From Salinarchaeum sp. Harcht-Bsk1 (GTDB lineage Archaea; Halobacteriota; Halobacteria; Halobacteriales; Salinarchaeaceae): a DNA stretch of 64,000 nt. The stretch covers positions 124,001 to 188,000 of the forward strand of contig NC_021313.1 in the NCBI RefSeq assembly GCF_000403645.1, read 5' to 3'. Positions 32,352-40,145 of this stretch are shown here, one piece after another. Made by a program: the position numbers and the translations under genes. Position 1 is the first letter of the stretch, and every line of letters starts with the position of its first letter. The notes below the pieces were generated by a model, which had not been told where the DNA came from, made no database searches, and saw only the letters and a program-made list of their open reading frames with translations.

Positions 32352-32996
32352 TCAGAGGTACGGCAGCGCGTCGGCCGTCTCCTGAATCGCATTCTGGTTG
32401 GCCTTCATCAGCGCCGTCGTGTCCCAGATGCCCTCCACGAGGGCCTGGCGCTGGGCGTCGTCGACCTCGACGTCCACCGTGGTGTCGCCGTAGGTGACGG
32501 TCTCGGCGGCGACGTCGACGTCGATGTCGCCGTCGGGGTTCTCCTCGACCCAGTCCTGCAGGTCGGCGATCGTCTCGCCGTCGGCGGTGACGGTGGGCAG
32601 CCCCAGCGCGAGACAGTTGCCCGCGAAAATCTCCGCGAAACTCTCGCCGATGAACGCGTCGATGCCCCAGCGCATCAGGGCCTGCGGGGCGTGCTCGCGG
32701 GAGGAGCCACAGCCGAAGTTGTCGTTGACGACCATGATCGAGGCGTCCTGGAAGCGCTCCTCGTTCATCGGGTGTTCCTTTGGCTCGTCATCGTCGTCGA
32801 AGCGCAGGTCGAAAAAGGAGAACTGGCCCAGCCCGTCGAAGGTGACCACCTTCATAAACCGCGCCGGGATGATCTGGTCGGTATCGACGTCGTTGCCCCG
32901 GATCGGGACGCCAGAGCCGGAGACGTGCTCGACCGAGGGGATGTCCTCGGTTGCGTCGCGGCCGCTCTCGTCGGGACCGTCGCCGTTCGCGCTCAT
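32352..32996 (-). CDS. leuD: 3-isopropylmalate dehydratase small subunit
   Basis: A 214-residue small subunit of isopropylmalate isomerase, which with LeuC converts 2-isopropylmalate to 3-isopropylmalate. Core motifs are [16 protein letters not shown] near residue 34, [36 protein letters not shown] (substrate-binding swivel domain), and [12 protein letters not shown]. An acidic N-terminal extension of about 28 residues precedes the core, as is common for haloarchaea. The start overlaps the leuC stop by 4 bp (ATGA), so the subunits are translationally coupled. Confidence 0.94.
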
Positions 32997-34414
32997 GCCA
33001 GGGGCACCTCCTTCATCTCGCGGACGTCAGAGACTTCCCCGTTGATCGCCGCCGCGGCGACCATTCGCGGGTTCATCAGGACGGTCCGCCCGTTCTTGGA
33101 GCCCTGGCGGCCGACGAAGTTCCGATTCGAGGAGGAGGCACAGGCCTCGTCGCCTTCGAGCTGGTCCTCGTTCATGCCGAGACACATCGAGCAGCCCGCG
33201 TTGCGCCACTCGAAGCCGGCGGCCTCGAAGACGTCCTTCAGTCCCTCTTCCTCCGCGGCGCGCTGGACGCGCTGGCTACCGGGCACGACGAAGGCGCGCA
33301 CGTCCTCGTCGACCTCGCGGTTCTTGACGATTCGCGCGGCGCGACGCAGGTCGGGTAGGCGAGCGTTCGTACAGGAGCCGAGGAACGCCACGTCGATGTC
33401 GTATCCGTTCATCGTCTCGCCGGGTTCGACGCGCATGTGCTCCTGGGCGCGTCGGGCGGTGTCCTGCTTCGCTTCGGGGAGGTCCTCCGGCGCGGGAATC
33501 GGATCGTCGATGCCGATGCCCTGCCCGGGCGTGGTGCCCCAGGTGACGACGGGGTCCAGCTCGCTTGCGTCGATCTCGACGACGTCGTCGTACTCGGCGT
33601 CAACGTCCGAGCGGATCGACTCCCAGTAGGGCTTCAGTTCGTCGTACTGCTCGGGGTGCTCCTGGAAGTAGTCGGTGTCCTGCAGCCACTCGTAGGTGGT
33701 CTCGTCCGGGTTGAGGTAGCCCGCCCGGGCGCCACCCTCGATCGTCATGTTGCAGATCGACATCCGGCCTTCCATGTCGAGGTTCTCGATGGTCTCGCCG
33801 GCGTACTCGTACACGTAGCCGACGCCGCCCTCGGTGCCGAGGCGGCGGATGATCTCGAGGATGATGTCCTTGGCCTCGACGCCCTCCTCGAGTTCGCCGG
33901 TGACCTCGATCTTCCGGACCTTCTGTTTCTCCATCGCGATAGTCTGGGTCGCGAGCACGTCCCGGATCTGGGAGGTGCCGATCCCGAAGGCCAGCGCGCC
34001 GAACGCGCCGTGAGTCGAGGTGTGGGAGTCGCCACAGACGATCGTCTTGCCGGGCTGGGTGATCCCCTGCTCCGGGCCGATGACGTGGACGATCCCCTGG
34101 TCGCCGCTGTCGGGATCCGAGAATTCGATGCCGGCCTCGCGGACGTTCTCCTCGAGTTCGGCCATCATCCGCTCCGCGGCGTCCTCCTTGTAGGGACGTG
34201 ACTGGTCGGCCGTCGGCACGATGTGGTCGACGGTCGCGTGGGTCAGGTCCGGCCGCGCGACCTCGAGGCCGCGCTCCTGGAGCATCCCGAAGGCCTGCGG
34301 GCTCGTGACCTCGTGGATGAGGTGCAGCCCGACGAACAGCTGGTCCTGCCCGTTCGGCAGCGTGGTGACCTTGTGCTGGTCCCAGACCTTGTCGTAGAGC
34401 GTGCCCTCACTCAT
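32993..34414 (-). CDS. leuC: 3-isopropylmalate dehydratase large subunit
   Basis: A 473-residue aconitase-family enzyme carrying the [4Fe-4S] cluster of isopropylmalate isomerase. Motifs: [84 protein letters not shown] with the first cluster Cys, and [13 protein letters not shown] with the C-x2-C pair. All three cluster ligands are present. Length is normal. Start overlaps the end of the upstream small orf by 8 bp; stop overlaps leuD by 4 bp. Confidence 0.95.
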
Positions 34415-34781
34415 CCGTTGCCTCGTCAGCTACGGCGTCGGATTCCGTCGTGCCGGCGTGCTCCGCGCCGCGCTCGAAGGTCGCGTTCGCACCGGTCTCG
34501 CTCGGTGCCTCGTGGTCGACGTCCTCCATGATCTCGTCCTCCTCGGGATCGGGGGCGGTCGCGGGCTTTCCACCGTCGGATCTGCGATCCGACGAGGATC
34601 GCCGTCCAGAGGCCGGCTCACCCCCGTCCGCAGCGACGCTGGGGCCGCGGCCGAAGATGGAGCCGAAAGTGGTGTTCCGATCCGGGTGGGTGTGGTCGAC
34701 GCCCCCCATGGATCGGTTGGCGCTGTCTGTGCTGCTGTCGGATTCTGTCGTGCGTTTCTCGGTCGGTGTATCGGGTGTCAT
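34407..34781 (-). CDS. conserved acidic protein between ilvC and leuC, internally repeated
   Basis: A 124-residue, highly acidic and probably disordered protein. Two related blocks are visible: [28 protein letters not shown] (about 27-54) and [23 protein letters not shown] (about 87-109), both reading VDH-x-x-P followed by TF and a (F/E)RG box. I do not recognise a characterised family. It sits inside the operon, 27 bp after ilvC and overlapping leuC by 8 bp, so it is co-expressed with branched-chain synthesis genes and may help the isomerase or its Fe-S cluster; that is inference only. Confidence 0.75.
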
Positions 34782-34808: not shown

Positions 34809-35852
34809 TCAGTCGTCTGCGGGTGCCTCGGCGGCTTCCTGTTCGTTCTCGTCGGCCCAGGCGAAGAGGGCGCGCAGGCGCTCGCCGACGTCCTCGATGT
34901 CGTGATTCATCTCGGCGTCGCGCAGCTGGGTGTAGCTGGGTCGGCCGGCCTGGTTCTCCGCGATCCACTCGCGGGCGAAGGTACCGTCCTGGACTGCCTC
35001 GAGCGTCTCCTCCATGTTCTCGCGAACGTGGTCGTCGACGATCTCGTCGCCTTTGACGAGGCCGCCGTACTCCGCGGTGTCGGAGACGGAGTTCCACATC
35101 TCGGCGTGCCCACCTTCGTACATCAGGTCGACGATGAGCTTCAGCTCGTTCAGGCACTCGAAGTAGGCGATCTCCGGGGAGTAGCCGTTCTCGACGAGCG
35201 TCTCGTAGCCGTGCTTGACCAGCGAGGTCACGCCACCACAGAGGACGGCCTGCTCGCCGAAGAGGTCGGACTCGACCTCCTCCTGGAAGCTGGTCTCGAT
35301 GACGCCCGCGCGGGCACAGCCGATGCCCTGGGCGTACGCCAGTCCCTCGTCGACGGCCTCGCCGGTTGCGTCCTGGTAGACCGCGAGCAGGGCGGGCGTG
35401 CCCTGGTCGCGCTCGTAGTTCCGGCGGACGAGGTGGCCCGGGCTCTTCGGGGCGACCATGGTCACGTCGACGTCCTCCGGCGGCTCGATCTGGTTGTAGT
35501 GGACGTTGAAGCCGTGAGCGAACTGGAGCGTGTCGCCGGCGTCGAGGTTCGGCTCGATGGCGTTCTCGTAGACGTCGGGCTGGACCGTGTCCGGGACGAG
35601 CACGGAGACGACGTCCGCCTGCGCAGCGGCGTCAGCCGGCGTCGCGACGCTCAGGCCGGCGGATTCGGCCTCGTCCCAGGAGCTCGAGGACTCGCGGAGC
35701 CCGACGACCACGTCGTGGCCGGACTCGTGGAGGTTGAGCGCGTGGGCGTGTCCCTGGCTACCGAAGCCGAGGACGGCTACGGTCTTGTCGTCGAGATGTG
35801 CACTGTCCGCGTCGTCGTCGTAGTATACCGTCGTGGTGAATTCGTCTGCCAT
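34809..35852 (-). CDS. ilvC: ketol-acid reductoisomerase
   Basis: A 347-residue class I enzyme that isomerises and reduces acetolactate (or acetohydroxybutyrate) with NAD(P)H in valine, leucine and isoleucine synthesis. Motifs: [34 protein letters not shown] (dinucleotide site), [46 protein letters not shown] with the metal-binding Asp and Glu, and [17 protein letters not shown] short acidic C-terminal tail is normal for haloarchaea. It lies 52 bp after ilvN and 27 bp before the small orf. Confidence 0.95.
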
Positions 35853-35904: not shown

Positions 35905-36564
35905 CTAGTCGTCGTTCATCGGCGCGTTCGCCGGGTGGTCGTGAGCCGCTGTTTCGGTAGTGCCGCGCGCCAGCGCCGCGGTTCCGGTCCGGGTGACCTC
36001 GCGGACGCCGAAGCGCTCGAATGCCTCGACGGCGTTCTCGATCTGGGGCCGCTGGCCGGTGATCTCGACCGTGATCGTCTCCGCGCCCGCGTCGACGGCC
36101 TGCCCGCCGTACATCTCCGCCATCGACTGCACCTTGTCCGGGTGGTCGCTGGAGACCTTGATGAGCGCGAGTTCGCGGAGCGTCGCGTCCCGCTCGAGTT
36201 CGCGAACCGACGCGACGGGCACGAGCTTCGCGAGCTGCTTCTTCGCCTGCTCGATGCCCGGTCGCGTCTCCTCGATGACGAGCGTGATCCGCGCTCGGTC
36301 GGGGTTCTCCGTCGGCCCGACGGTCAGGCTCTCGATGTTGAACTGCCGTCGGCTGAACAGCGAGGAGATCTGCGCCAGGACCCCGGGCTCGTGGAGCACG
36401 AGCACCGAGAGCGTCGCGACTTCGGGCTCGGGCTCGGCTTCTGCCTCGGGGTCGATCCGGATGCCCTGGGCGTTGCGCTTGCCAGTGGGCTCCGGTCGCT
36501 CCTCGGGGTGGGGTCCATCCAGCGCCTTCGAGTCGACGTCCGGTTGTTGTGGTGAATCACTCAT
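35905..36564 (-). CDS. ilvN: acetolactate synthase small (regulatory) subunit
   Basis: A 219-residue regulatory subunit. A 45-residue acidic N-terminal tail precedes the ACT domain ([47 protein letters not shown], about 48-95), which binds valine and mediates feedback inhibition in the family. The second domain ([77 protein letters not shown]) is the usual IlvN C-terminal part. It starts 11 bp after ilvB. Confidence 0.94.
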
Positions 36565-36575
36565 ACTTGATCACC

Positions 36576-38465
36576 TCAGAGCTGGCCCTCCGACAGCGCG
36601 AACTTCCCGTTGTCCCCGCCGCTGGGGACCATCGGATAGACGTTCGCCTGCGGGTCGATCCGGAAGTCGATCACGCTCGGACCGTCGTAGTCGACCGCGG
36701 CCTCGACGGCGTCGGCGACCTCGTCGTAGTCGTCGACCGCCCAGCCGCGGGCGCCGAAGGCCTCCGCCAGCTTGTCGAACTCGGGACACCAGCCGTACTC
36801 CGAGGCCGCGTGGCGACCCTCGAAGAAGGCGTCCTGCCACTGGCGAACCATGCCGACGTACTCGTTGTTGAGCACCGCGACGGTGACGTCGAGGTCCTCG
36901 CGGACGGCGACTGACAGCTCCTGCATCGTCATCAGGAAGGAGCCGTCGCCCTCGAAACAGACGACGTCCTGGTCGTCGTCAGCAGCCAACCGCGCGCCGA
37001 TCGCCGCGGGCATGCCGTAGCCCATCGTGCCCAGCCCGTGGCTGGAAACCCAGGTGCGGGGCTCGGTGAACTCCCAGTACTGGCAGGCCCACATCTGGTG
37101 TTGGCCGACGCCGGTCGTGACGATCGCGTCGTCGCCGGTCGCCTCGTCCAGCGCCTCGACGACGAACTCCGGCTGGAGCGGCCGATCCTCCGGGATCGGG
37201 TAGTCCATCGGATACTCCTTCTTCCAGGTCCGGCACTGCTCGCGCCACTCGTCTGCCTCCGGCGCAGCTTCGACCTCGTCGTGAAGCTGCTCGATCACCG
37301 TTGCAGCGTCGCCGATCAGGGGGTAGTCCGCGTGGATGTTCTTGCTGATCTCCGCCGGATCGATGTCCACGTGGACGACCTCCGCGTCGGGCGCGAACGT
37401 CTCGATGCCGCCGGTCAGGCGGTCGTCGAAGCGCGTGCCGATCCCGATCAGGAGGTCGGTGTGGGTGATGGCCATGTTGGCGAATCCGGTGCCGTGCATG
37501 CCGGCCATCTCCATCGATAGCTCGTGGTCCTCGGGGAACGCGCCCAGTCCGGGCATCGTCGTCACGACCGGAATCTCGTACTCGGTCGCGAACTCGTACA
37601 GTTCGTCGCTGGCGTCGCCCTTGACGATCCCACCGCCGGCCAGGATCGCGGGGCGCTCGGCGTCCTCGATGGCCCGCGCGGCATCGACGACGTTCGCGCG
37701 CTCGGCGGTTTCCTGGACCGTGTAAGTCTCGGGCGTCTGTGGTGCGCCCGGCTCCCGGTCGGTCTCGGCGTTGGTCACGTCCTTGGGCAGGTCGACCAGG
37801 GTCGGCCCAGGGCGGCCCGTGCGCGAGAGTTCCAGCGCCGTGCCGACGTCGTCGCCGACCGTGTCGGCGTCCGTCGCGAAGATGTTGTGCTTCGTGATCG
37901 GATCGGTGACGCCGGTGGTGTCGGTCTCCTGGAACGCGTCGTTGCCGACGAAGTCCGTGGGGACCTGACCGGTCAACGCGATCATCGGGTCGGAGTCCAT
38001 GTCGGCGTCGGCGATGCCGGTCACAAGGTTCGTCGCACCGGGACCCGACGTGGCCAGGCAGACGCCTGGCTCGCCGGAGACGATGCCATAGGCGTCTGCG
38101 GCGTGGGAGGCGCCCTGCTCGTGGGCCATCGTGACGTGGGTCAGCGCCTCGGAGTCGTAGAGCGCGTCGTAGACGGGCATGATCGCGCCGCCCTGGACCC
38201 CGAAGAGGTACTCGATGCCGGAGTTCTCGAGCGCGCGGACGACCGACTGTGCTCCGGAGGTGACCTGGCGCTGGCCCGCGTCGGCGTCGGCCGTCGATTG
38301 GTCGTCGTCACCGACGTCGGGGTCGGTGCCCTCGGTACCGGCGCCACGCTCGGCCGCGGAGCCAGGTGCGGTCGTCCCGGTCGGACCGGCGGTCGCCTTT
38401 CCACCGTCGGGAACGGCGTCCGTCGAGGCGTCGCTCGGTTCGGTGTCGGATTCGTCGTCGGTCAT
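36576..38465 (-). CDS. ilvB: acetolactate synthase large (catalytic) subunit
   Basis: A 629-residue thiamine-diphosphate enzyme that condenses two pyruvates to acetolactate (or pyruvate with 2-oxobutyrate). An acidic disordered stretch of about 68 residues precedes SGAQSVVRALENSGIEYLFGVQGGAIMPVYDAL. Further motifs: VTMAHEQGASHAADAYG with the cofactor-activating Glu, GVCLATSGPGATNLVTGIADA, and GDGSFLMTMQELSVAVREDLDVTVAVLNNEYVGMVRQWQ, the GDG...NN site for TPP-Mg. First structural gene after a leader region; followed by ilvN after 11 bp. Confidence 0.95.
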   Translation of the reverse strand: MTDDESDTEPSDASTDAVPDGGKATAGPTGTTAPGSAAERGAGTEGTDPDVGDDDQSTADADAGQRQVTSGAQSVVRALENSGIEYLFGVQGGAIMPVYDALYDSEALTHVTMAHEQGASHAADAYGIVSGEPGVCLATSGPGATNLVTGIADADMDSDPMIALTGQVPTDFVGNDAFQETDTTGVTDPITKHNIFATDADTVGDDVGTALELSRTGRPGPTLVDLPKDVTNAETDREPGAPQTPETYTVQETAERANVVDAARAIEDAERPAILAGGGIVKGDASDELYEFATEYEIPVVTTMPGLGAFPEDHELSMEMAGMHGTGFANMAITHTDLLIGIGTRFDDRLTGGIETFAPDAEVVHVDIDPAEISKNIHADYPLIGDAATVIEQLHDEVEAAPEADEWREQCRTWKKEYPMDYPIPEDRPLQPEFVVEALDEATGDDAIVTTGVGQHQMWACQYWEFTEPRTWVSSHGLGTMGYGMPAAIGARLAADDDQDVVCFEGDGSFLMTMQELSVAVREDLDVTVAVLNNEYVGMVRQWQDAFFEGRHAASEYGWCPEFDKLAEAFGARGWAVDDYDEVADAVEAAVDYDGPSVIDFRIDPQANVYPMVPSGGDNGKFALSEGQL

Positions 38466-38652
38466 CGATGCTCACCTGTCGGCGTCGTCGAGGAGGGCGC
38501 CTTCGCGTGCTGGCGACACCCTCGTTTGCTGATCGGCGGGCGATACGGGCGGAGTGATCGTCGGTGTGGACTGGCGTGTCGGGTCATTGCTGAACGGAAC
38601 CGCTGGTGGTCGAAAGCTGGACGGCAACTCGAGGAAGGGGTAGGTGCAGGGG
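38466..38652 (-). promoter_or_regulatory. spacer between leader ORF and ilvB
   Basis: 187 bases follow the leader stop before the ilvB ATG. No further gene is seen. The spacer starts with the 3' half of a hairpin and C-rich sequence and ends with GACAGGTGAGCATCG before the start, in which AGGTGAG is the likely ribosome-binding site of ilvB. No U-rich tract typical of archaeal termination was found, so regulation by early termination would need another signal. Confidence 0.5.
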
Positions 38653-38664
38653 CTAGGGAGCCCC
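38649..38664 (-). promoter_or_regulatory. hairpin overlapping the end of the ilv leader ORF
   Basis: GGGGCTCCCTAGCCCC on the minus strand: perfect 6-bp G/C-rich arms with a 4-base loop. The last codons of the leader peptide (Gly-Ala-Pro) and its TAG stop lie inside it, so a ribosome stalled on the preceding Val/Ile codons or at the stop would prevent it from forming. Confidence 0.6.
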
Positions 38665-38730
38665 TACGATAATCGCTACGACGTCGCTGCTCGCCGGACG
38701 TGCGGACCGGGAGCGAGCGCGTCGGTTCAT
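38653..38730 (-). CDS. putative branched-chain amino acid leader peptide of the ilvBNC operon
   Basis: A 25-residue ORF. It starts MNRRARSRSARPASS, strongly basic, and ends DVVAIIVGAP. Five of the last ten residues are Val or Ile, read by GTC GTA ATT ATC GTA; GTA and ATT appear uncommon beside the GTC and ATC that dominate neighbouring genes. A Shine-Dalgarno sequence AGGAG lies about 12 bases before the ATG. The TAG stop is inside a perfect hairpin. The layout recalls bacterial ilv attenuator peptides, of which E. coli IvbL also ends in a Val run followed by GNAP. Located 187 bp before ilvB; no homology search was possible. Confidence 0.6.
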   Translation of the reverse strand: MNRRARSRSARPASSDVVAIIVGAP

Positions 38731-38847
38731 TGCTCGTTCTCTCCTGCGACCTCGGTGTATTTGTTTGTTTCGGAGCAACGGTGACGGATTCCCGCCCCTG
38801 TGGGGGGTCGTCGGCGACTCGCCGTCGGTCTGGAGCATCGGTGCTCG

Positions 38848-38883
38848 AAATCCACCAGTCGCTGGAAATCCGCTGGTCGCTGC
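38848..38883. repeat. two tandem 18-bp repeats upstream of the ilv leader
   Basis: GAAATCCACCAGTCGCTG (38848-38865) is followed directly by GAAATCCGCTGGTCGCTG (38866-38883), 15 of 18 bases identical. They lie 118-153 bases before the leader ATG. A related GAAAATCACCGCTG occurs at 40252-40265, 107-120 bases before the leuA start, so they may be copies of one regulator site. Confidence 0.45.
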
Positions 38884-38920
38884 TGGAGGTGTGGTGTGCG
38901 GCCCGGGACATGGGAATCAC

Positions 38921-40145
38921 CTACGCCCGGACCTCCTCTTCCTCGAGGGATACCCCGACCTCGCGGGCGAAGCGCTCCAGCTCCGCCTCGGTGACGCGGT
39001 CGCCCTCGGCGCCGTAGTCCTTGACCCGCCGGGTGACCGCCCGGACCTCCTCGTCGGAGGGGGCGAAGCCAGCGTCGACCAGGCGCTCGCGGACGCCGTG
39101 GGTCCCGGTGTGCTTGCCCAGGACCAGTTCGCGCTGGGCACCGACCATCTCGGGGGTCATGACGCCGGGCTCGAAGGTGTCGGAGTTCTCGATCACGCCC
39201 GCGGCGTGGATGCCGCTCTCGTGGGAGAAGGCGTTGGCCCCGACGACCGGCTTGTTGCCCGGCGTCTCGATACCGGACTTCTCCTCGACGACGCGTGACA
39301 GCTCCGTGATCCGCGTCGTGTCGATGCCGGTGTCGGCCTGGAACACGGACTCGACGGCCATCACGAACTCTTCGTAGGCGGCGTTGCCGGCCCGCTCGCC
39401 GATGGAGTTGACCGAGACCTGGGCCTGGTCGGCGCCGGCCTCGATGCCCGCGATGGCGTTGGCCGTCGCCATCCCGAAGTCGTCGTGGGTGTGGACGTCG
39501 ATCCGCGCGTCGGTGTGGTCCGTGACCGTGTCGATCAGGTCGTAGAACCGCCGCGGCGCGGCGACGCCGCAGGTGTCCGGGATGTTGATCCAGTCCGTCC
39601 CCGCCTCGGAGACGGCCTCGATCACGTCCAGTAGGAATCCTTCGTCCGTGCGCGTGGCGTCCATGGGCGAGAACATGCAGGTCGCGCCCGCTTCGGTGAC
39701 CCGCTCGACGGCGTCGACCGCGTTCTGGCGGACCTCCTCGCGGGTCGCGTGCATGGAGTCCTCGATCTGGACGTCGCTCGTCGAGACGAAGACGTGGACC
39801 ATCTCCGCGCCCGAATCGAGGGCGGCTTCGATGTCCTTGTCCACGACTCGCGCCAGCCCACACACGTCGGAGCTGGTGCTCTTCGCGATGTCTCGGACTG
39901 CCTCGAACTCGGCGTCCGAGTTCACCGGGAACCCTGCCTCGATGACGTGGGTGCCCATCTCGTCGAGGATCGCCGCTATCTCGCGTTTGTCCTCGTAGGA
40001 GAAGGACGTGCGAGGCGACTGTTCCCCGTCTCTGAGCGTCGTGTCGAAAACGCGCGCCGTCTCGATCTCGTCAGTTGAATCCAGTGTGCCCTGGAAGAAC
40101 TCGATCCGCCTGGCTGGTGCCAGACGAGTCGTCGGAATGCGACAT
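38921..40145 (-). pseudogene. leuA: 2-isopropylmalate synthase, apparent 5' frameshift
   Basis: LeuA condenses acetyl-CoA with 2-oxoisovalerate, the first step to leucine. The main frame gives FDTTLRDGEQSPRTSFSYEDKREIAAILDEMGTHVIEAGFP (metal site and catalytic Arg), SVNSIGERAGNAAYEE and KPVVGANAFSHESGIHAAGV, all intact to the stop at 38921. Its homology reaches back to EFFQGTLDST, but that frame has no ATG, GTG or TTG before a stop at 40151. A good start, ATG at 40145 with a TATA-like element 30 bases upstream, begins MSHSDDSSGTSQADR in another frame, which stops at 40071. Frames must join near 40100. Starting at the next in-frame ATG (39958) would lose the active site. Truly broken, or a sequence error. 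Confidence 0.75.

Follow-up and report, generated by a model that had tools for sequence, protein, structure and literature searches.

A probable leader-peptide attenuator upstream of ilvBNC in Halobacteria

The ilvB locus in Salinarchaeum

The window (the whole 64,000-nucleotide stretch of Salinarchaeum sp. Harcht-Bsk1 DNA that was analysed) carries on its minus strand, in this order, leuA, a short ORF (ORF1), ilvB, ilvN, ilvC, an ORF for a 124-aa protein, and leuC. The acetolactate synthase large subunit gene ilvB (36576..38465; TIGR00118, 2.9e-209) is the first enzyme gene under the control proposed below. It is followed by ilvN (35905..36564; TIGR00119), encoding the small subunit, and ilvC (34809..35852; TIGR00465), encoding ketol-acid reductoisomerase. 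The downstream part of the operon is formed by leuC (32993..34414; TIGR00170), the gene of the isopropylmalate dehydratase large subunit. The ilvB of Salinarchaeum laminariae (L032) is 87% identical to that of the window.

Between ilvC and leuC lies the gene of a conserved 124-aa protein of unknown function (34407..34781, minus strand). NCBIfam and Pfam searches with it gave no matches; the ORF is present in the operon of 57/80 relatives, with some of the loci truncated. A VDHxxP...FxRG motif occurs twice in the protein. Upstream of ORF1, leuA (38921-39958, minus strand) was identified as the neighbouring gene. Its reading frame stays open 5' of the first ATG (39958-40110, minus strand; IEFFQGTLDSTDEIETARVFDTTLRDGEQSP...), and the true leuA start is therefore not the ATG at 39958. 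A search of the phage collection returned no matches.

ORF1 (38653..38730, minus strand) has 25 codons and encodes the putative leader peptide MNRRARSRSARPASSDVVAIIVGAP. Its final codons are GAC GTC GTA GCG ATT ATC GTA GGG GCT CCC TAG. The TAG stop codon occupies 38655-38653 and is separated by 187 bp (38652-38466) from the ilvB ATG at 38465. The original prediction, made from the sequence alone, had described this ORF, its DVVAIIVGAP-TAG ending, its distance to ilvB and the identity of ilvBNC, and all of these held. The ATT ATC GTA codons (Ile Ile Val; 38665..38673, minus strand) are the putative regulatory codons, singled out by codon statistics in relatives.

A putative attenuator hairpin, GUAGGGGCU-CCCU-AGCCCCUGC (38646..38667, minus strand), takes in the final sense codons of ORF1 together with its stop codon. 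RNA folding gives it 9 bp, a 4-nt loop and -16.9 kcal/mol (z = -2.8; 3/200 shuffles were as good). The stop codon had been placed inside a perfect hairpin at 38649-38664, which is correct, and the hairpin is larger than described. Directly 3' of it follows a G-free pyrimidine-rich tract (38631..38645, minus strand); the earlier statement that no U-tract is present holds for the window.

Before ilvB there is also a second small ORF, ORF2 (38462..38587, minus strand), with 41 codons, MTRHASPHRRSLRPYRPPISKRGCRQHAKAPSSTTPTGEHR, nearly without Val, Ile or Leu. Its TGA overlaps the ilvB start codon (ATGA). The original prediction treated ORF1 as the whole device and missed ORF2, so it was incomplete in this respect.

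Conservation among Halobacteria

For comparison, 110 ilvB loci were fetched from Halobacteria. The non-redundant set consists of 69 loci, which were de-duplicated only at 80% over 45 nt and are still related to one another; start codons were assigned by rule. At 109/110 loci the motif AT[T/C]GTAGGGG[C/T], followed by CCCC, is found within the leuA-ilvB gap, in frame with an ORF of 18-54 codons whose tail reads I-V-G-[A/V]-(x) and reaches a stop codon soon after the motif. The exceptional locus (L105) encodes RVVVGAV with GTAGTAGGGGCC, and its hairpin is unchanged. A pattern search for ATYGTAGGGGY..CCCC found the motif in 327/342 Halobacteria genomes, mostly as one copy each; the reversed pattern gave about 20 matches in the same search. 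A short ORF with a Val/Ile-rich end in many Halobacteria, which the original prediction had named as the observation that would support it, is thus present. A shorter pattern, GTAGGGGY..CCCC, was also searched for across the phylum and was uninformative, since its reversed control matched equally often. The one match of interest, in genome G356, proved to be a normal terminator with no ORF.

At 109 loci Ile precedes the tail Val; rare variants (L105, L122, L128) have Val or Leu there. More distant families retain V-G-A with Ile replaced by Val, Leu or Phe (PVVGAS in L122, LVLVGAL in L128, VFVGA in L133). In four loci from divergent families (L129-L132) ilvB is present and the leader motif was not found, and in L121 the upstream region has only an unrelated small ORF and no leader. 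A wide range of residues (R, I, G, V, A, P) stands N-terminal to IVG. The leaders of Haloferax elongans and H. profundi (L110/L092) have SLIIVGA at their C-terminus. The base immediately before the conserved Ile codon is T in 90/109 loci (window position 38671); the codon to which it belongs is variable, and pairing does not explain this preference.

Two observations bear on the nature of ORF1. In the 120 nt 5' of the motif, the 69 non-redundant loci contain 105 ATGs in the motif frame, compared with 3 and 9 in the remaining frames. Together with the class-wide conservation, these frame statistics exclude a chance ORF. In close pairs, substitutions fall evenly on codon positions 1, 2 and 3 (129/142/139), so there is no third-position bias in the body and the body of ORF1 is not a functional protein, though the frame and the tail are kept. 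A kept frame and tail with a drifting body are what a leader peptide should show, and ORF1 probably encodes one; its translation is inferred from sequence alone. A conserved functional micropeptide was rejected for the bodies of both ORF1 and ORF2, as third-position bias is absent.

The start of ORF1 can be placed relative to a promoter. A BRE/TATA-like element, CGAAACAAACAAATAC (38757..38772, minus strand), lies about 32 nt 5' of the ORF1 ATG, and similar boxes are present in relatives. At 47/69 loci the TATA-like box begins exactly 32 nt 5' of the ATG, and at 66/69 its distance is 39-25 nt. From this spacing it follows that the transcript probably starts at the ATG or a few bases from it, making the ORF1 mRNA leaderless or nearly so. 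The AGGAG which had been noted before the ATG is present in the window, but it is absent from Salinarchaeum laminariae (L003/L032), and any Shine-Dalgarno (SD)-like sequence is found 5' of ORF1 in just 15/69 loci. A Shine-Dalgarno start for ORF1 was therefore rejected and the AGGAG regarded as accidental. Immediately upstream of the promoter, a GCAA-N2-3-TTGC palindrome, possibly a regulator site, occurs in 19/69 loci (e.g. L006, L020, L092); the window has the TTGC half only.

Codon choice in the tail is far from that of the downstream gene. GTA encodes the tail Val in 69/69 loci, yet in the ilvB genes of these genomes its share of the Val codons is only 0.5% (15/2867). ATT accounts for 78% of the Ile codons in the tail, whereas among Ile codons of the 69 ilvB genes the figure is 8.6%. 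The original statement that three of the five Val/Ile codons of ORF1 (GTA, ATT, GTA) are uncommon is therefore correct. GTA is invariant although in 44/99 stems its A is unpaired (there is no outer pair). Since GTA stays constant even where its A cannot pair, the codon itself appears to be selected. Selection on the codon is the favoured reading; an RNA or protein recognition sequence that includes GTA and GGG is not excluded. The strictly conserved regulatory codons number one or two for Ile and one for Val, fewer than in most bacterial leaders.

The hairpin is conserved along with the tail. Because MAFFT left the variable loops unaligned, pairs were counted per sequence by a script. A GGGG/CCCC stem is present in 99/102 distinct sequences, compared with 25 in shuffles. 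The next inward pair (motif position 10) is C-G in 79, T-A in 7, T-G in 6, and a mismatch in 7. Loop length varies among relatives from 3 to 9 nt, and the ORF1 stop codon is mostly in the loop or the 3' arm. In some Natrialbaceae the stop codon lies 12 nt further downstream with the stem retained (GGGGCGCTCTCGCCCC).

The tract after the hairpin is poor in G in the relatives as well. At motif positions +18 to +36 the G fraction of the 69 loci is 2-4%, in contrast to 20-35% around it. T runs of at least 4 after the hairpin are enriched, occurring in 21/69 relatives (6.6 in shuffles), but a U-tract such as strong archaeal terminators have is missing from most loci. No competing antiterminator hairpin was found by single-sequence folds, without a systematic comparative search. 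A search of 38300-39000 with Rfam covariance models (riboswitch, T-box, leader RNAs) gave no hits with E up to 1.

ORF2 is likewise widespread. Its TGA overlaps the ilvB ATG in 60/69 loci, and an ORF2 of at least 10 codons is found in 54/63 loci in which ilvB starts with ATGA, compared with 7 in dinucleotide shuffles. It starts 68-125 nt past the motif (once 188 nt). Val, Ile and Leu together make up 3% of its residues (18% in ilvB). Relative to other frames, the ORF2 frame has ratios of 0.12 for Ile, 0.33 for Val and 0.55 for Leu, versus 1.4 for Phe and 3.0 for Met, so the depletion is specific both to the frame and to the residues. Apart from this the ORF2 sequence drifts freely. Val, Ile and Leu are similarly scarce in the N-terminal tail of ilvB (3.6%), an observation given little weight because such acidic tails are common in haloarchaeal proteins. 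An SD-like site of ilvB itself is present in 59/63 loci. A BCAA-poor route into ilvB would be sensible if ilvB must be translated under starvation. An ORF2 is present in most Halobacteria, and it often carries a [QRTP]YR[PTSQ] motif.

Upstream ORFs at other genes

Leader-like ORFs are also found before two aminoacyl-tRNA ligase genes. At pheS, about 20 of 30 loci have a Phe-rich upstream ORF of 23-29 aa, mostly of the form M[A/V]SE...GFGFF[F]x followed by the stop codon, and a T-rich TATA-like box precedes it. An ORF containing WRW, likely a Trp leader peptide, is present before the bacterial-type trpS (L172-L181) in 6/10 loci. The upstream regions of hisG, trpB and ileS were scanned too, and no comparable conserved leader was detected, which shows that the scan does not turn up ORFs of this kind at every gene. 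Past the leader stop codon, the pheS loci (L142-L171) contain a conserved GGTGGACTC...hairpin...GAAACC block, which resembles a structured RNA element.

Upstream ORFs at such genes have been seen before. Differential RNA sequencing (dRNA-seq) of Haloferax volcanii detected upstream ORFs (uORFs) of 15-31 aa with mapped transcription start sites in long 5'-UTRs (PMC4983044, Table 2), among them one of 26 aa before pheS and one of 23 aa before a tryptophan--tRNA ligase. They were taken as small proteins and no attenuation was proposed in the relevant section; ilvB is absent from the list.

In two genomes of one genus (G031, G339) a second ilvB-type leader precedes a stand-alone relative of the 124-aa ORF (L134, L135). 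The relationship is supported by 40% identity over about 50 aa in G031 (E 9e-5) and is weaker in G339 (E 0.015). This second copy would fit a leader that is a portable regulatory unit of a regulon, which is a possibility only.

Interpretation and comparison with known systems

The anatomy of the locus, its conservation, the codon choice, the hairpin and the coupling overlap of ORF2 with ilvB are established. ORF1 lies in the leader of a biosynthetic operon and is enriched over background in codons for the end products, as is required of an attenuator. ORF1 and the hairpin therefore probably constitute a ribosome-mediated attenuator of ilvBNC-leuC. Translation, stalling, the direction of the switch, termination and regulation itself are inferred, with no expression, ribosome-profiling or RNA-end data. 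The core of the original prediction, a leader peptide reporting Ile/Val supply to ilvBNC, is supported at this inferred level because the short ORF is conserved in the class, its Ile/Val tail and rare codons are kept, and Phe and Trp versions occur before pheS and trpS.

In the proposed mechanism, transcription would begin just 5' of ORF1 and the leaderless RNA would be translated immediately. The ribosome would decode a disposable peptide and arrive at the rare ATT/ATC and GTA codons, where the base of a G+C-rich hairpin lies; the 5' arm of this hairpin is made of the GTA GGG GCN codons themselves. With ample charged tRNA-Ile or tRNA-Val the ribosome would terminate and depart, the hairpin would fold and ilvB expression would fall. 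With Ile or Val scarce, the ribosome would be slow on these codons, its footprint would prevent the hairpin from forming and transcription would go on; ribosomes would then translate the BCAA-poor ORF2 and cross the ATGA overlap into ilvB. A ribosome with its A site at ATT or GTA would cover approximately 12-15 nt downstream. Such a footprint would keep the 5' arm open, and occlusion is therefore the simplest reading.

How the hairpin would act is not settled. An effect on transcription, either premature termination or a pause at the G-free pyrimidine tract, is favoured over a block to the next ribosome, because the tract follows the stem and because termination by a hairpin has been seen in Haloferax: an in vivo assay in Haloferax volcanii showed 59% termination of transcripts by a hairpin that lies upstream of a termination site (PMC7237163). 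A haloarchaeal hairpin can therefore terminate without a long U-tract. A translational component is still possible because ORF2 is coupled to ilvB. The suggestion in the original prediction that the mechanism acts on translation or through stalling, not through termination, thus remains undecided. Recognition of the C-rich tract by FttA/aCPSF1 was considered and is not claimed; the FttA structure paper contains no such term.

The best surviving alternative is a purely translational switch, in which the mRNA is always full-length, the hairpin after ORF1 impedes ribosomes or small subunits on their way to ORF2, stalling relieves the block, and ilvB is translated by reinitiation. It is supported by the ORF2 ATGA overlap (60/69), the depletion of Val, Ile and Leu codons in ORF2, and a T-tract that is weak or missing at many loci. 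However, the SD-like site of ilvB (59/63 loci) means that the gene may not depend on ORF2, the hairpin is located 60-100 nt 5' of ORF2, and neither the start of ORF2 nor that of ilvB was seen to be sequestered by any structure. This alternative is considered unlikely.

Much less support remains for an arrest peptide, in which the nascent IVG[A/V] tail itself would stall the ribosome, perhaps with a bound metabolite (TnaC-type), without any sensing of tRNA charging. The tail is indeed the sole conserved part of the peptide and adjoins the stop codon. However, synonymous positions are fixed (GTA, GGG), diverse residues are tolerated before IVG, which is not expected of such a peptide, and the pheS and trpS leaders have other amino acids, matched to their genes.

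An untranslated RNA element or DNA operator, with GTAGGGG-N-CCCCTAC bound by a regulator and the ORF incidental, would explain the strong nucleotide conservation, including the T at -1 (90/109), but can be all but dismissed on the frame statistics (105 vs 3 and 9 ATGs), the varying arm spacing (loops of 3-9 nt, unlike a DNA dyad), the restriction of the codons preceding GTA to I, V, L or F, and the lack of an Rfam match.

Ribosome-mediated attenuation can also be read more broadly. Haloarchaea may have general leader-peptide attenuation on leaderless uORFs, sensing Ile/Val at ilvB, Phe at pheS and Trp at one type of trpS; at ilvB a single hairpin over the sensing codons would be combined with a coupled, nearly BCAA-free ORF2 that guides ribosomes into ilvB in starvation. 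The balance of evidence tips slightly towards this bolder reading.

Accounts of how archaea regulate amino-acid biosynthesis usually centre on transcription factors. The open-access literature searched (subscription papers and preprints were not covered) yielded no description of leader-peptide attenuation in any archaeon, which is consistent with the original statement that it is not established in haloarchaea. If the interpretation is true, archaea would here have their first known system of ribosome-mediated attenuation. A class-wide leader peptide would imply that the ribosome position reads out transcription, or at least downstream expression, in archaea, and so bears on transcription-translation coupling. 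Given the parallels at pheS and trpS, annotation pipelines may be overlooking a family of such sensors.

In E. coli, the ilvBN leader peptide IvbL is a Val-rich short ORF before acetolactate synthase genes of the Ile/Val/Leu pathway, with a G+C-rich hairpin located at the stop codon or beyond it, and all of these features have a haloarchaeal likeness. The haloarchaeal ORF differs in that it is apparently leaderless, has a single hairpin over the regulatory codons with no alternative antiterminator found, has a weak or absent U-tract, and is followed by an extra BCAA-poor ORF coupled to ilvB. Homology to IvbL through the Val-rich run and the GNAP ending, a likeness drawn in the original prediction, did not hold up. 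The haloarchaeal consensus is IVG[A/V](x)-stop and not GNAP, few leaders outside Salinarchaeum have the final Pro, and the codons for Gly-Ala double as the hairpin 5' arm, so the resemblance is accidental and the haloarchaeal leader has not been shown to be homologous to IvbL.

The leaders of Corynebacterium glutamicum ilvBNC (PMC11857589) and Mycobacterium tuberculosis ilvB1 (PMC13236596) share with the haloarchaeal one the ilvBNC gene order and a uORF with BCAA codons, and in M. tuberculosis a GUA codon is a marked regulatory codon (PMC13236596), like the putative one of the haloarchaeal leader. The actinobacterial leaders form mutually exclusive antiterminator and Rho-independent terminator hairpins, whereas one hairpin is seen in haloarchaea. 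The haloarchaeal pheS and trpS leaders are paralleled by the E. coli pheST leader PheM and the bacterial trp leaders, which are likewise matched to the amino acid, PheM also preceding an aminoacyl-tRNA ligase gene. These use bacterial machinery and terminators, and no sequence relationship is claimed. By analogy, the haloarchaeal device, for which neither an alternative hairpin nor a U-tract has been demonstrated, probably works like the bacterial leader-peptide attenuators.
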